From Agreia sp. Leaf210 (GTDB taxonomy: Bacteria; Actinomycetota; Actinomycetes; Actinomycetales; Microbacteriaceae): a stretch of DNA of 64,000 bases. Position 1 is the first letter of the stretch. Every line of letters starts with the position of its first letter. Shown one piece after another: positions 56,137 through 59,853 of the stretch. Where the stretch lies: assembly GCF_001421485.1 (NCBI RefSeq), contig NZ_LMKK01000003.1, positions 620,001 to 684,000 of the forward strand. The letters are read 5' to 3'. The notes below the pieces were generated by a model that ran no database searches, was not told where the DNA came from, and was given only the letters and a program-made list of their open reading frames with translations. A program made the position numbers and the translations under genes.

Positions 56137-56769
56137 CTAGCGGGCGACCTCGCTCTGCACGGCGAGTCCGGCGATGAGCAGAGATACTCCGAAGTCGAAC
56201 GAGTCGCGCTCCCCACGGGCTCGCTCCTCCGCATCCGACGGTTGTGCGCCCAGCGCGGCAGTGACCACGCCGAGGCTGTCCGCCTGCATTCTCTGCTGCT
56301 CGTGAGAGACATGACCGAGCAGAAAATGGAGAAAGGCCGCGGCTGCGGCTCGTTCGACGCGTTCGTCGAACTCGCCTAAGCGGATCGCGGCGGTGAATCT
56401 GCCGAGGGCTTCCCCCTTGCCGAGACCGAGCGCCTGCGAACTGAGAACGACCTCTGCGCCGTCTCGGAACGACAGCAGGGCGTCTCTCAGCGCTCGGGCT
56501 TCGATGCGCACGGCCGAGGCCCAGTCGGTCTCTCCGTCGCCCCTCGTGTGTGCGCGGTGCACGATGCGGTCCGATACGGCGGCGAGCAGCGTCTGCTTGT
56601 TCTCGAAGTGCCAATACAGAGCGCTCGGCTGCACATTCAACGTGGACGCCAGTCGCCGCATCGTCAGATCGGCCAGACCGTGTTCGTCGAGGATGGTCAG
56701 TGCCGCGTCGACGACGTCGATTCGGGAGTGTCGCTGTGATCTTGCCGAGGAGCGGGCATCAGTGGTCAT
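56137..56769 (-). CDS. bioQ: TetR-family regulator, BioQ-like
   Basis: The 210-residue repressor-type protein has an N-terminal helix-turn-helix (residues 22-62, with LTMRRLASTLNVQPSALYWH) and a variable ligand-binding C-terminus. It is divergent from bioY, and tandem 13-bp palindromes lie between. In corynebacteria and mycobacteria a TetR protein, BioQ, controls biotin genes through a similar 13-bp motif. The assignment rests on position and operator sequence. The ATG at 56769 was picked because the frame upstream passes through the shared promoter. It converges on the ABC-F gene, 17 nt apart. Confidence 0.8.
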   Translation of the reverse strand: MTTDARSSARSQRHSRIDVVDAALTILDEHGLADLTMRRLASTLNVQPSALYWHFENKQTLLAAVSDRIVHRAHTRGDGETDWASAVRIEARALRDALLSFRDGAEVVLSSQALGLGKGEALGRFTAAIRLGEFDERVERAAAAAFLHFLLGHVSHEQQRMQADSLGVVTAALGAQPSDAEERARGERDSFDFGVSLLIAGLAVQSEVAR

Positions 56770-56794: not shown

Positions 56795-56822
56795 TGAACG
56801 CTGTTCAGGTGAATGTTGTTCA
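56795..56822. promoter_or_regulatory. Tandem BioQ-type operators before bioY
   Basis: Site 1 (56795-56807) is the perfect palindrome TGAACGCTGTTCA. Site 2 (56810-56822) is TGAATGTTGTTCA with one mismatch. Centres are 15 bp apart. A -10-like TAACAT (56790-56795) abuts site 1, so binding would cover the start of bioY transcription. Confidence 0.75.
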
Positions 56823-56842: not shown

Positions 56843-57421
56843 GTGGTCAAGCAGGCGGCATGGGACGTGCGTGATACGACGCGAGTAGCGGCTTTCGCCG
56901 CCCTCATCGCGGTTCTCGGTCTGCCTGGTGCGGTCCCCGTCTTCGGAGGAGCCGTTCCCATCACCTTGCAAACATTGGGCGTGATGCTGGCCGGAACGAT
57001 TCTCGGTCCCTGGCGCGGTGCGGCGGCAGTGCTCACACTCGACGTGCTGGTTCTGATCGGACTGCCTCTTCTGTCGGGCGGTCGGGGAGGTGCGGGCGTG
57101 TTCGTGGGTCCGACGGCGGGATATCTGGTCGGGTGGATTCTCGGCGCCTTTGTCATCGGCGCCATCTCCTTCGCCGGCTCGCTGAGGCCCACCTGGTGGC
57201 GCACCGCAGCAGCCTGTATCACGGGCGGCATCGTTGTCGTCTATGCGTGTGGGATTCCGGTACAAGCCCTGGTGATCCGGCTTCCCCTCGCCCAGACAGC
57301 GCTGACCAGCGTCGTCTTCCTTCCGGGCGACCTCGTCAAGGTCGTACTCGCCACCGCCATCACCCTCACGCTGTGGCGCGCATACCCGCGCGCGTTCAGC
57401 CGCAGAGTCATCAACCGATGA
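56843..57421 (+). CDS. bioY: Biotin ECF transporter S component BioY
   Basis: BioY binds biotin in the membrane and couples to an energising module. The 192-residue protein has about six helices. It carries the family loops VPITLQTLGVMLAG (near residues 36-49) and GGRGGAGVFVGPTAGYLVG (near 80-98) that bind biotin. The GTG at 56843 has GGAGG 6 nt upstream; an in-frame ATG at 56813 lies inside operator 2 and is unlikely. It overlaps bioM as ATGA. Confidence 0.95.
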   Translation: MVKQAAWDVRDTTRVAAFAALIAVLGLPGAVPVFGGAVPITLQTLGVMLAGTILGPWRGAAAVLTLDVLVLIGLPLLSGGRGGAGVFVGPTAGYLVGWILGAFVIGAISFAGSLRPTWWRTAAACITGGIVVVYACGIPVQALVIRLPLAQTALTSVVFLPGDLVKVVLATAITLTLWRAYPRAFSRRVINR

Positions 57422-58110
57422 ACCCTGATCGTCTCATCTCGTTTCGCGCCGTCTCCGTCGACTTCGACACCAGAACCGCCCTCGAGGACGTCTCCGTCGC
57501 CCTCGATCACAGGCGCATCGCCGTCATCGGGTCGAACGGATCTGGCAAGTCGACCTTCGCGCGTCTGCTCAACGGCTTGGCCTCCGCGAGCAGCGGCGAG
57601 GTGCGCGTGCACGGAATCGACCCTCTCCGCCAGGGTAGGTTGCTGAGGCGTCGTGTGGGATTCATCTTCAGCAATCCCGACAGTCAGATCGTGATGCCGA
57701 CGGTCACAGAAGACATCGCATTCTCGCTTCGAGGTCGCGGGCTGTCTCGAACGGAGGTCGACGAACGCGTGTCGCACACGATGGACACGTACGGTCTCGC
57801 CGGCCACGCCGACTCTCCCGCGCACAGTCTGTCGGGCGGCCAGAAGCAGCTCCTGGCACTGAGCTCGGTTCTCGTGAGCGAGCCAGAACTCGTCGTCGCC
57901 GACGAGCCCACGGCCCTGCTCGACGCCGCGAACACTCGGCGTATCGGCGATCACCTGCTCGATCGGATGCCCCAGCAGCTCGTCCTCGTCACGCACGACC
58001 TGCGCCTCGCGGCACGCTGCGACGTCGCGGTGTGGTTCGACCAGGGCCGCGTGGTCGGATGTGGCGATGCCCACTCTGTCATCGAGGACTACGAGAGGAG
58101 TCACGGATGA
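57418..58110 (+). CDS. bioM: Biotin ECF transporter ATPase BioM
   Basis: This is the ATP-hydrolysing subunit of the BioMNY importer. Its 230 residues have Walker A GSNGSGKST near 37, the Q-loop region SNPDSQIV near 84, signature LSGGQKQLLAL near 139 and Walker B LVVADEPTALLD near 159 with the switch His in LVTHD. The start overlaps bioY, the stop overlaps bioN as ATGA, and an upstream ORF extension is inside bioY. Confidence 0.95.
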   Translation: MNPDRLISFRAVSVDFDTRTALEDVSVALDHRRIAVIGSNGSGKSTFARLLNGLASASSGEVRVHGIDPLRQGRLLRRRVGFIFSNPDSQIVMPTVTEDIAFSLRGRGLSRTEVDERVSHTMDTYGLAGHADSPAHSLSGGQKQLLALSSVLVSEPELVVADEPTALLDAANTRRIGDHLLDRMPQQLVLVTHDLRLAARCDVAVWFDQGRVVGCGDAHSVIEDYERSHG

Positions 58111-58706
58111 TCAGCGCGTACCGGTCGGGTACGAGTCCTGTGCACCGGATGCCGACGGGCATCAAGCTGATCAGCTTCATCGGGATGTCTCTCGTCGTCG
58201 CCGCGGCCGTGACCGATCTGTGGCAGGTCGTCGCCGCACTGACCTTCGTGATGACGGCCTACGCGTTGGCCGGGCTCGATGCGCGGGTGCTGACGGGTCA
58301 GGTTCTCGCGGTCAGGTGGGTCATCGTCTTTATGCTCGTGCCCCAGCTGCTCTTCCTCCCCGCACTCGTCGCCGCCTCCAATACCGCGCGTGTGGCGTTG
58401 ATCATCGTCCTTGCCGCCCTGTTCACCATCACGACGCGCGTCCCCGACCTTCTCGATGCTGTCGAACGCGCACTGGTGCCGCTCCGCAGGTTCGGAGTCC
58501 GGCCCGAGGGCGTAGCGCTCGCTCTGGCCCTGACAATCACGTCGATTCCCGTGCTCGCAGGTTTCGCCTCGACGATTCGGGATGCCCAACGGGCCCGAGG
58601 CATTCCCGCTCATCGTGTGAGCTTCGCCGTTCCGCTCCTCATCATGTCGCTGAAACACGCCGACGATCTTGCAGACGCCGTGAGCGCGCGGGGAATCAAA
58701 CCGTGA
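58107..58706 (+). CDS. bioN: Biotin ECF transporter T component BioN
   Basis: This is the membrane coupling subunit. The 199-residue protein has about five helices and the two EcfT coupling motifs AQRARGI (near residue 160) and SARGI (near the end), which dock onto the ATPase. The ATG overlaps the bioM stop. The stop overlaps the next gene as GTGA. Confidence 0.94.
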   Translation: MISAYRSGTSPVHRMPTGIKLISFIGMSLVVAAAVTDLWQVVAALTFVMTAYALAGLDARVLTGQVLAVRWVIVFMLVPQLLFLPALVAASNTARVALIIVLAALFTITTRVPDLLDAVERALVPLRRFGVRPEGVALALALTITSIPVLAGFASTIRDAQRARGIPAHRVSFAVPLLIMSLKHADDLADAVSARGIKP

Positions 58707-59014
58707 AGGTCTGGGGCCAGACGGTAGACGACGAGACGCGTTGCGTGCACTACCGATCGGCGAAAGACATCGTCGCCATCAAGTTCGCCTGCTGCGGCCG
58801 GTACTATCCGTGTCATCTCTGTCACGAAGAAGCGGAGACCCATCGGGCACGGCAGTGGTCGCTCCGGGAGCGAGGCACGAAGGCCATTCTCTGCGGAGCG
58901 TGCGAGACGGAGCTCTCGATCGTCGACTACCTCGCGACGGATCGGTGCCCTTCCTGCTCTGCGCTCTTCAACGAACGCTGCAGCCTGCATGCACACCTCT
59001 ACTTCGAGATGTAG
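58703..59014 (+). CDS. CHY zinc-finger protein coupled to bioYMN
   Basis: The 103-residue protein is nearly all metal-binding module. It has CVHY at 14-17, CC at 30-31, PCHLCH at 36-41, His47, CGAC at 64-67, CPSC at about 81-84 and Cys/His pairs at the end (CSLHAH). This CHY-type zinc finger appears alone in some bacteria and in eukaryotic Hot13 and Pirh2. The GTG start overlaps bioN (GTGA), so it is translated with the biotin importer, and its 3' end overlaps the convergent SURF1 gene by 16 nt. Function unknown. Confidence 0.88.
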   Translation: MKVWGQTVDDETRCVHYRSAKDIVAIKFACCGRYYPCHLCHEEAETHRARQWSLRERGTKAILCGACETELSIVDYLATDRCPSCSALFNERCSLHAHLYFEM

Positions 59015-59853
59015 GTCGACCGATCGATCAACTCGTCTTCGATGTCGTTGTCGCTCTTCGCCTTGGCCTTGCGACGCCGCTCACGCTCGGCCGCCCGTTC
59101 CATCTCATCCGGGTCGCCGGCGTTCAGAGAACGGTATTCCTGCCGGGCCGCGTAACCGAGGCCGAGGAATCCGAGCAGGGCGAAGACGAACCATTGGAAG
59201 GCGTAGGACAGGTGCGGACCCTCGTCCTCCGGCGGACGCGTCTCGAGCTGGCCCGTGTCTGACGACGGCGACTCTGTGGCCAGGTCGCCGTATGCTCCCG
59301 TGTAGGTGGGCTGGTCGAGCTGCTCGGCGATCGTCGGAAGATCGATCGACGGAATCTCGCCGGCGGCAGCCGACCTTCCCTCGAGCTTCGGCTCGCTGGC
59401 CTTCAACCTGGCGACGACGGTGACCTCGCCCTGGGGAGCCGAGGGGACGACATCCGGTTTGTCCTGCTCCTGGCCGGTCGGAAGCCAGCCCCGGTCGACG
59501 ATGAAGACAGAGCCGTCGTCGAGCCGGAACGGCACGAGGAGCTCGAATCCGGGTTGCCCGCCCGACGGGCGATTGCGCACCAGCAGCTGCTCTGACTCGA
59601 GGTACGAACCCGTGAGGGAGACGGTCGCCCACTTCTGCGACTCGTCGAAGGAACCCAGGCCGTCGAGCACATCCGTCACAGGCCGGGGCGCGGCGTCGTA
59701 GTTCGCCGCGACGCGATTATTCTCAGCGAGCGCATCGGCCCTTCTGGCCAGTTGCCAGCATCCGAGCAGCACGCACACGAGCGCGAAGACCACCGTCAGC
59801 GCGAGGTATCCACCCCAGCGCGAGGTGAGAAGGAACCGCCAGCCGGTGTTCAC
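58999..59853 (-). CDS. SURF1-family cytochrome oxidase assembly protein
   Basis: SURF1 helps insert heme A into cytochrome c oxidase subunit I, which fits with ctaA and ctaB elsewhere in the window. The 284-residue protein has two transmembrane helices (about 16-36 and 222-242), with a soluble external domain between. It carries the signature PHLSYAFQWFVFA near 216-228 and the internal RGWLP motif near 119. A charged cytoplasmic tail ends it. Its start overlaps the stop of the small gene upstream. Confidence 0.93.
   Translation of the reverse strand: MNTGWRFLLTSRWGGYLALTVVFALVCVLLGCWQLARRADALAENNRVAANYDAAPRPVTDVLDGLGSFDESQKWATVSLTGSYLESEQLLVRNRPSGGQPGFELLVPFRLDDGSVFIVDRGWLPTGQEQDKPDVVPSAPQGEVTVVARLKASEPKLEGRSAAAGEIPSIDLPTIAEQLDQPTYTGAYGDLATESPSSDTGQLETRPPEDEGPHLSYAFQWFVFALLGFLGLGYAARQEYRSLNAGDPDEMERAAERERRRKAKAKSDNDIEDELIDRSTYISK

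Follow-up and report, generated by a model that had tools for sequence, protein, structure and literature searches.

Among described systems, the biotin transporter genes bioY, bioM, and bioN were named in Corynebacterium glutamicum, and the BioQ site TGAAC-N3-GTTCA was predicted (PMC3398298, in excerpt). In Staphylococcus aureus, yhfS-yhfT is a known target operon of BirA, and the two genes, which belong to the regulon of this repressor, are described as putatively concerned with fatty acids (PMC6391492 and PMC7235819, in excerpt); their regulation within this regulon also appears in an excerpt of PMC11089781. Additionally, the N-terminal domain and the RING of Pirh2 together form a groove for an Ala-ended tail, the free carboxylate of which is contacted directly by Tyr23 and Arg41 and via water by Arg54, Asp94, and Gln99 (PMC10148881, in excerpt). 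The transporter, its control by BioQ, and the bioY/yhfT/yhfS regulon are already known. Not found in the open-licence literature is a CHY zinc-finger protein added to the biotin regulon, in two phyla and apparently under two unrelated repressors. We found no title on a CHY zinc finger at a bacterial biotin locus in the open-licence literature, and no report of zf-CHY in an operon context in the same literature. To our knowledge, no job is known for bacterial CHY zinc fingers.

We analyzed a window of 64,000 nucleotides (the whole stretch of DNA under study) from Agreia sp. Leaf210, a member of the family Microbacteriaceae. The biotin operon in the window matches bioYMN of C. glutamicum with BioQ in its transporter genes and in its predicted operator (PMC3398298, in excerpt). 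The CHY gene comes last in the window's operon, in the order bioY-bioM-bioN-CHY (Table 1). The genes overlap by four bases at both bioY/bioM and bioM/bioN, and the overlap of the CHY start with the bioN stop (TGA) reads GTGA. The best PDB sequence matches of the divergent regulator were 5yek, 5xs9, and 5yej (E 4e-34), labelled as TetR family only, which we take to be BioQ of M. smegmatis. No sigma-70 promoter-like site was found between positions 56600 and 59300.

Table 1. Features of the biotin operon and its borders in the window (positions are counted from the first nucleotide of the window)
Feature	Position	Strand	Remarks
TetR-family regulator, BioQ type	56137..56769	-	divergent from bioY; Pfam and PDB sequence matches
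BioQ-type operator TGAACGCTGTTCA (predicted)	56795..56807		exact match to TGAAC-N3-GTTCA; motif from PMC3398298 (in excerpt)
Second BioQ-type operator TGAATGTTGTTCA (predicted)	56810..56822		one mismatch; 15 bp on from the first
bioY, biotin-binding S component	56843..57421	+	PF02632
bioM, ECF ATPase	57418..58110	+	ABC_tran (Pfam)
bioN, T component of biotin ECF transporter	58107..58706	+	CbiQ family (Pfam)
CHY zinc-finger gene	58703..59014	+	103 aa; begins with GTG, in overlap with the stop of bioN; zf-CHY
SURF1 gene	58999..59853	-	convergent, operon boundary; the 3' ends of SURF1 and CHY share 16 bases

The sequence-only reading of this DNA had described a 103-residue CHY frame that starts by a GTGA overlap on bioN, beside the genes of a biotin ECF importer, and both the coordinates and the Pfam assignments confirm it. 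Its description of the protein as made almost wholly of Cys/His sites was overstated, as 10 Cys and 6 His account for 16 of the 103 residues. The CHY protein scored 46.8 bits against zf-CHY (PF05495), above the curated cut-off of 31.3, and no NCBIfam name was found for it. In the comparison with the sister species Agreia bicolorata (locus L157, the same assembly as genome G140), which belongs to the same genus as the window's species, Nei-Gojobori estimates were dN 0.11 and dS 0.51 for CHY (dN/dS 0.22), and dN 0.15 and dS 0.94 for bioN. By this comparison, the CHY reading frame is under purifying selection. A chance open reading frame was rejected on the basis of the zf-CHY score, the kept zinc ligands, and the dN/dS ratio.

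Residue conservation was counted in the Pfam-found set of 59 CHY proteins (23 biotin-linked and 36 unlinked), because the motif patterns that were used for finding more distant loci contain C14, H16, Y17, or the CC pair. Twelve of the 16 Cys/His residues were invariant in all 59 proteins, and two further Cys, C30 and C93, were kept in 58 and 57 of them, respectively. The CHY protein is described here as a predicted zinc-binding protein. Its AlphaFold model, built from 50 aligned sequences, had a pLDDT of 92.6, and the CHY domains of Pirh2 (2dkt, 7ynx, and 2k2c) were the sole PDB fold matches with a Foldseek E below 0.001 (1.7e-4 to 5.3e-4). The VIA Z scores against these domains were 6.7-7.1 over 75-77 residues, and just those three structures reached Z 2. 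A Z of about 7 is middling and, as far as the model goes, shows a common fold with the CHY domain of Pirh2, not a common function. The CHY domain of Pirh2/RCHY1 was also matched by sequence (best E 0.004). Unlike Pirh2, in which the CHY domain is accompanied by a RING, the CHY protein stands alone with 103 aa, without RING or CTD.

In a residue numbering of Pirh2 that we assume for the alignment, Tyr23, which holds the carboxylate at the end of the Ala tail, aligns with Y17 of the window's CHY protein, Arg41 with H38, and Arg54 with Q51, which is variable among CHY proteins. Position 17 was Tyr and position 38 was His in 50 of the 59 proteins each, including all 23 biotin-linked proteins and 27 of the 36 unlinked ones, with replacements at each position in the other 9. 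This pattern may be a mark of a biotin-linked subgroup, or of kinship alone. By analogy with Pirh2, tail binding by the CHY protein is conceivable.

Among 179 sampled genomes of the family, zf-CHY was identified in 39 and BioY in 164, and both were present in 36; that is, 128 of the 164 BioY genomes had no CHY. The CHY gene followed bioN in 18 of the 39 CHY genomes, across 11 genera, and was located elsewhere, unlinked, in the other 21. The distance from bioN to CHY in linked loci ranged from overlap to about 180 bases. Of the 21 linked loci, 7 had a CHY start, as chosen by script, that overlapped the stop of bioN; since overlap was confined to these, the shared trait is co-orientation in one gene string rather than translational coupling, and the tight coupling emphasized earlier is not the conserved feature. 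In the wider order, CHY was present in 22 of 248 genomes, and a second family of this order (f82) contained three genomes of one genus with CHY after bioN. Among 346 genomes sampled across the phylum, zf-CHY exceeded the cut-off in 3, all of which belong to the window's family. Linked and unlinked genes were intermixed in the tree of the 59 CHY proteins, on which the label 'unlinked' changed 7 times, with at least 3 changes forced by well-supported branches, in a tree with few columns and many open forks.

Genes encoding an AMP-forming acyl-CoA ligase (LIG) and a thiolase (THIO) of the YhfT/YhfS type were located between bioY and bioM in 17 of the 21 linked loci, the exceptions being the window, L044, L047, and L093. 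These pairs are putatively yhfT-yhfS, and they are likened to yhfS-yhfT of S. aureus and B. subtilis, which belong to the BirA regulon; unlike those, the actinobacterial LIG-THIO sets are found in BioQ-boxed operons, often with CHY. The control genome of B. subtilis had no zf-CHY match, and that of C. glutamicum had one. LIG was identified (E 1e-60) in 26 of the 179 family genomes, with 10 candidates scored per genome and 22 of 22 in the window's own genome (G000). It adjoined bioY in 21 of the 26 genomes (including loci L103 and L104) and did not in G154, G017, G098, and G160, whereas the place of BioY was not listed for G048. CHY was present in 18 of the 26 LIG genomes versus 21 of the 153 others (p 1.4e-8 by genome). 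Counted by genus, which handles kinship to the genus level, co-occurrence was 11 of 17 versus 13 of 68 (p 5e-4). The best LIG matches in the window's genome were fragments with 29-33% identity (E 1.5e-13 and 3.8e-12; all 22 candidates scored), and no THIO was found there at E 1e-40. According to these searches, the window's species is without the YhfT-YhfS module. Its genus-mate A. bicolorata has LIG and THIO between bioY and bioM, and bioY and bioM of the window overlap cleanly (ATGA, 57418-57421).

The C-terminal catalytic Cys of ordinary thiolases was absent in all 11 THIO proteins found by regular expression, which represent 9 distinct assemblies (L045/L190 and L088/L219 being pairs from the same assemblies), based on alignment to 8gqj. 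The nucleophile Cys and the His of the GHP motif were kept in the THIO of biotin loci (e.g., L157:4559-5716), and Ala, Ser, or Gly replaced the C-terminal Cys. LIG-THIO pairs were also found in three Staphylococcus genomes, where THIO was 45% identical, and one Staphylococcus copy had Gly at the same C-terminal position. Only 3 of the 179 family genomes had BioB above the TIGR00433 cut-off, and G070 was the only one of these among the 26 LIG genomes; the window's species had two BioB matches, the best with E 8e-8 and 32.2 bits against a cut-off of 225 bits. Because BioB is so rarely above the cut-off, LIG-THIO is unlikely to serve de novo biotin synthesis, and the production of pimelate for this purpose was rejected.

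Beyond the family, we compared the 80 nearest named CHY loci. Two motif patterns had matched more than 586 loci, of which these 80 were the most similar; some of them come from the same assemblies as the sampled genomes (e.g., L157 and G140, L219 and G160). With flanks of up to 7 kb, biotin genes flanked CHY in 31 of these best 80, and 49 had no biotin neighbour. The order bioN-CHY was found in Microbacteriaceae, Promicromonospora, Streptomyces SPB074, some Arthrobacter, and a Corynebacterium-like contig, and bioY-CHY, without bioMN nearby, in Sinomonas, Pseudarthrobacter, and Arthrobacter. In addition, CHY was tail-to-tail with bioYMN in L199 and L221, divergent in L212, and first in Kocuria L231 (CHY-bioM-bioN-bioY-LIG-THIO). 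The biotin-linked named loci included two Bacillota, Paenibacillus L210 and Rummeliibacillus L215, both with the order bioY-LIG-THIO-FAS1-type dehydratase-MaoC dehydratase-SDR-EcfA-EcfA-EcfT-CHY, in which CHY begins on the base right after the EcfT stop. In these two loci (L210:387-7324 and L215:403-7324), the dehydratases, SDR, ligase, and thiolase between bioY and the ECF module make up an almost full CoA-dependent two-carbon cycle. The gene content suggests that such an elongation or shortening cycle might serve the repair of biotin side chains.

An exact BioQ box was present 5' of bioY in all 21 testable loci, namely 20 with CHY behind bioN and L053, in which CHY lies ~5 kb away; L104 was left out of this count, as the locus ends too early. 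In L087 and L088 (genus g18), LIG-THIO-CHY occurred without bioYMN in the fetched 9 kb, preceded by an exact and a one-mismatch BioQ box 15 bp apart. L219, from the same assembly as L088 (G160), is Mycetocola tolaasinivorans, and the gene order LIG-THIO-CHY was shared by L225, another Mycetocola. For unlinked CHY genes, no BioQ box with 0-1 mismatch was found within 250 bp in any of 34 (the best had two mismatches), a set that leaves out L102 and L053 and in which L120 offered only 113 bases, 60 of them inside the gene. Across the best 80 of more than 586 named loci, there were 29 exact boxes, compared with 0.6 in base-shuffled copies, and five Micrococcaceae bioY-CHY loci had no box with 0-1 mismatch.

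In the order of Lysinibacillus (G769), CHY was matched in 133 of 220 genomes, 129 of them above the cut-off. We mapped the best-scoring 72 of the 133 loci (12 with 1.5 kb flanks and 60 with about 4 kb), of which 15 were biotin-linked, comprising eight EcfT-CHY, six divergent bioY/CHY, and one bioY-CHY; a doubtful LIG neighbour (27%) in L341 raises the script's count to 16, and the other 56 were unlinked. No partner common to the CHY genes was found, the commonest neighbour families occurring in only 15 and 14 of 61 loci (CHY was recognised in 61 of 70). The six divergent loci carried inverted repeats of the GTTAAC type in the intergenic space. BirA-like repeats lay at the CHY ribosome-binding site and start in all six and near bioY in five (11 sites in total), and the same regular expression matched 5 times across 60 other loci of this order that together span 479 kb; it was written after inspection of the six loci, and the likeness to BirA sites was judged against those before the Staphylococcus LIG gene. 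These six loci are much alike, perhaps from one genus, and may represent one event. The expression also matched before LIG-THIO in two of three Staphylococcus loci (L245 and L246; not L247). In the 400 bp that precede CHY, it had no match in any of 14 further Bacillota loci, consisting of six Staphylococcus, six other stand-alone genes, and L210 and L215, where no site is expected before CHY because the gene is operonic.

CHY thus recurs beside bioY, bioN/EcfT, or LIG-THIO in several gene orders in both Actinomycetota and Bacillota. The tie between CHY and biotin is not local and not obligate, and it is the minority state. BioN/EcfT is the commonest biotin neighbour of CHY and LIG-THIO its best statistical companion, and neither is found in all biotin-linked loci. 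A lineage-only oddity was rejected, as the linkage occurs in a second family, in distant named loci, and in Bacillota; the sequence-only reading had named restriction to this lineage as evidence against a biotin tie, and the neighbourhood of bioYMN and CHY is broader than that. It had also named the presence of CHY without bioYMN in most relatives, which holds in part (128 of the 164 BioY genomes of the family have no CHY, and CHY is unlinked in 21 of the 39 CHY genomes). Membership of CHY in biotin uptake is favored by its linkage in 18 of the family's 39 CHY genomes, in f82, in 31 of the best 80 of more than 586 named loci, and in 15 of 72 Bacillota loci, and is opposed by the 128 of 164 BioY genomes without it.

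The pairing of CHY with biotin genes in distant bacteria of two phyla suggests that CHY helps to scavenge biotin. Our main reading, to which we give a probability of about one half, is that CHY belongs to the biotin-limitation regulon as an optional member kept by selection, not as a chance neighbour, and is a zinc protein that assists biotin scavenging. Under this main reading, the CHY gene would be expressed under biotin limitation, and its product would be small, cytosolic, stabilised by zinc, and devoid of an enzyme active site. The protein would bind a protein of the scavenging machinery and help its assembly, stability, or activity, candidate clients being BioN/EcfT, the T component, and the acyl-CoA enzymes of the YhfT/YhfS type. 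In the operon of the window's species, which has neither LIG nor THIO, the transporter would be the sole remaining client. As a guess at the mode of action, CHY might dock on the free C-terminus of its client, as Pirh2 does for Ala-ended tails.

A rather unlikely possibility is that the client is the transporter itself, i.e., that CHY binds BioN/EcfT and assists the assembly, stability, or turnover of the transporter. In both phyla, the biotin gene most often found upstream of CHY is the T gene: 21 of 59 tree rows have bioN-CHY, and 8 of the best 72 of 133 Bacillota loci have EcfT-CHY. The transporter is all that remains in the window's operon. However, LIG-THIO-CHY occurs without bioYMN in the fetched stretches of L087 and L088, bioY-CHY occurs without bioMN nearby in Sinomonas, Arthrobacter, and Pseudarthrobacter, CHY comes first in Kocuria, and most BioY genomes of the family have no CHY. 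From gene content, the LIG-THIO pair in the same regulon would be an equally good client. Small zinc-ribbon DUF35 proteins partner some thiolases, and CHY might likewise be a zinc scaffold for a YhfT/YhfS-type ligase-thiolase that remodels imported biotin vitamers at their side chain, the window's CHY being a remnant or serving other enzymes. We regard this as rather unlikely. The co-occurrence of LIG and CHY and the overlap of the THIO stop with the CHY start in L088 speak for it, and a helper protein for THIO would make sense since all 11 THIO lack the C-terminal catalytic Cys. Nevertheless, CHY stays with bioYMN where the operon has no LIG/THIO (the window, Subtercola, Herbiconiux, and others), is under apparent purifying selection in the window's species, which is without both, and is missing from 8 of the 26 LIG genomes. 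A pure thiolase scaffold was disfavored, as CHY persists where LIG and THIO are missing.

The many stand-alone CHY genes indicate that the CHY family is not biotin-specific, and their contexts point either to a role of CHY beyond biotin or to a zinc protein of general use. In an unlikely alternative, CHY would be a protein for general zinc buffering or redox work, often alone, that is parked in an easily transferred biotin operon. It would account for the stand-alone genes in many genomes, the lack of a partner common to more than 15 of 61 Bacillota loci, and the changes of the linked state on the CHY tree, but not readily for repeated, differently built linkages in two phyla. The detached LIG-THIO-CHY operon keeps its BioQ boxes, and BirA-like sites lie at the start of CHY itself in six Bacillota genomes, which argues against a passive rider and disfavors the accidental rider that the sequence-only reading had offered among its options.

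The most specific version, which we consider quite improbable, is that CHY is a dedicated tail-binding adaptor between the ECF importer of biotin and a CoA-dependent rebuilding of side chains under BioQ/BirA control. The pathway would consist of the ligase and the thiolase without the second Cys of ordinary thiolases, joined in Bacillota by dehydratases and a ketoreductase, and it would act on damaged or shortened biotin side chains. CHY would have a carboxylate-holding pocket like that of Pirh2 and would serve biotin scavenging widely among Gram-positive bacteria. Should CHY prove to read tails in this way, zinc proteins of bacteria would be connected with the eukaryotic degron reader Pirh2. 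Independently of this adaptor, the recurring unit of bioY, ECF, ligase, thiolase, and CHY ties both CHY and yhfS-yhfT to one regulon and one nutrient, in bacteria mostly without BioB.

Two further gene arrangements were observed. In Staphylococcus, CHY was located directly behind a murB-like gene (L197, L198, L207, L217, L218, and L226), which is another context. In five Micrococcaceae loci (L238-L241 and L244), LIG-THIO faced bioM-bioN tail-to-tail, and CHY was found elsewhere beside bioY or bioYMN.
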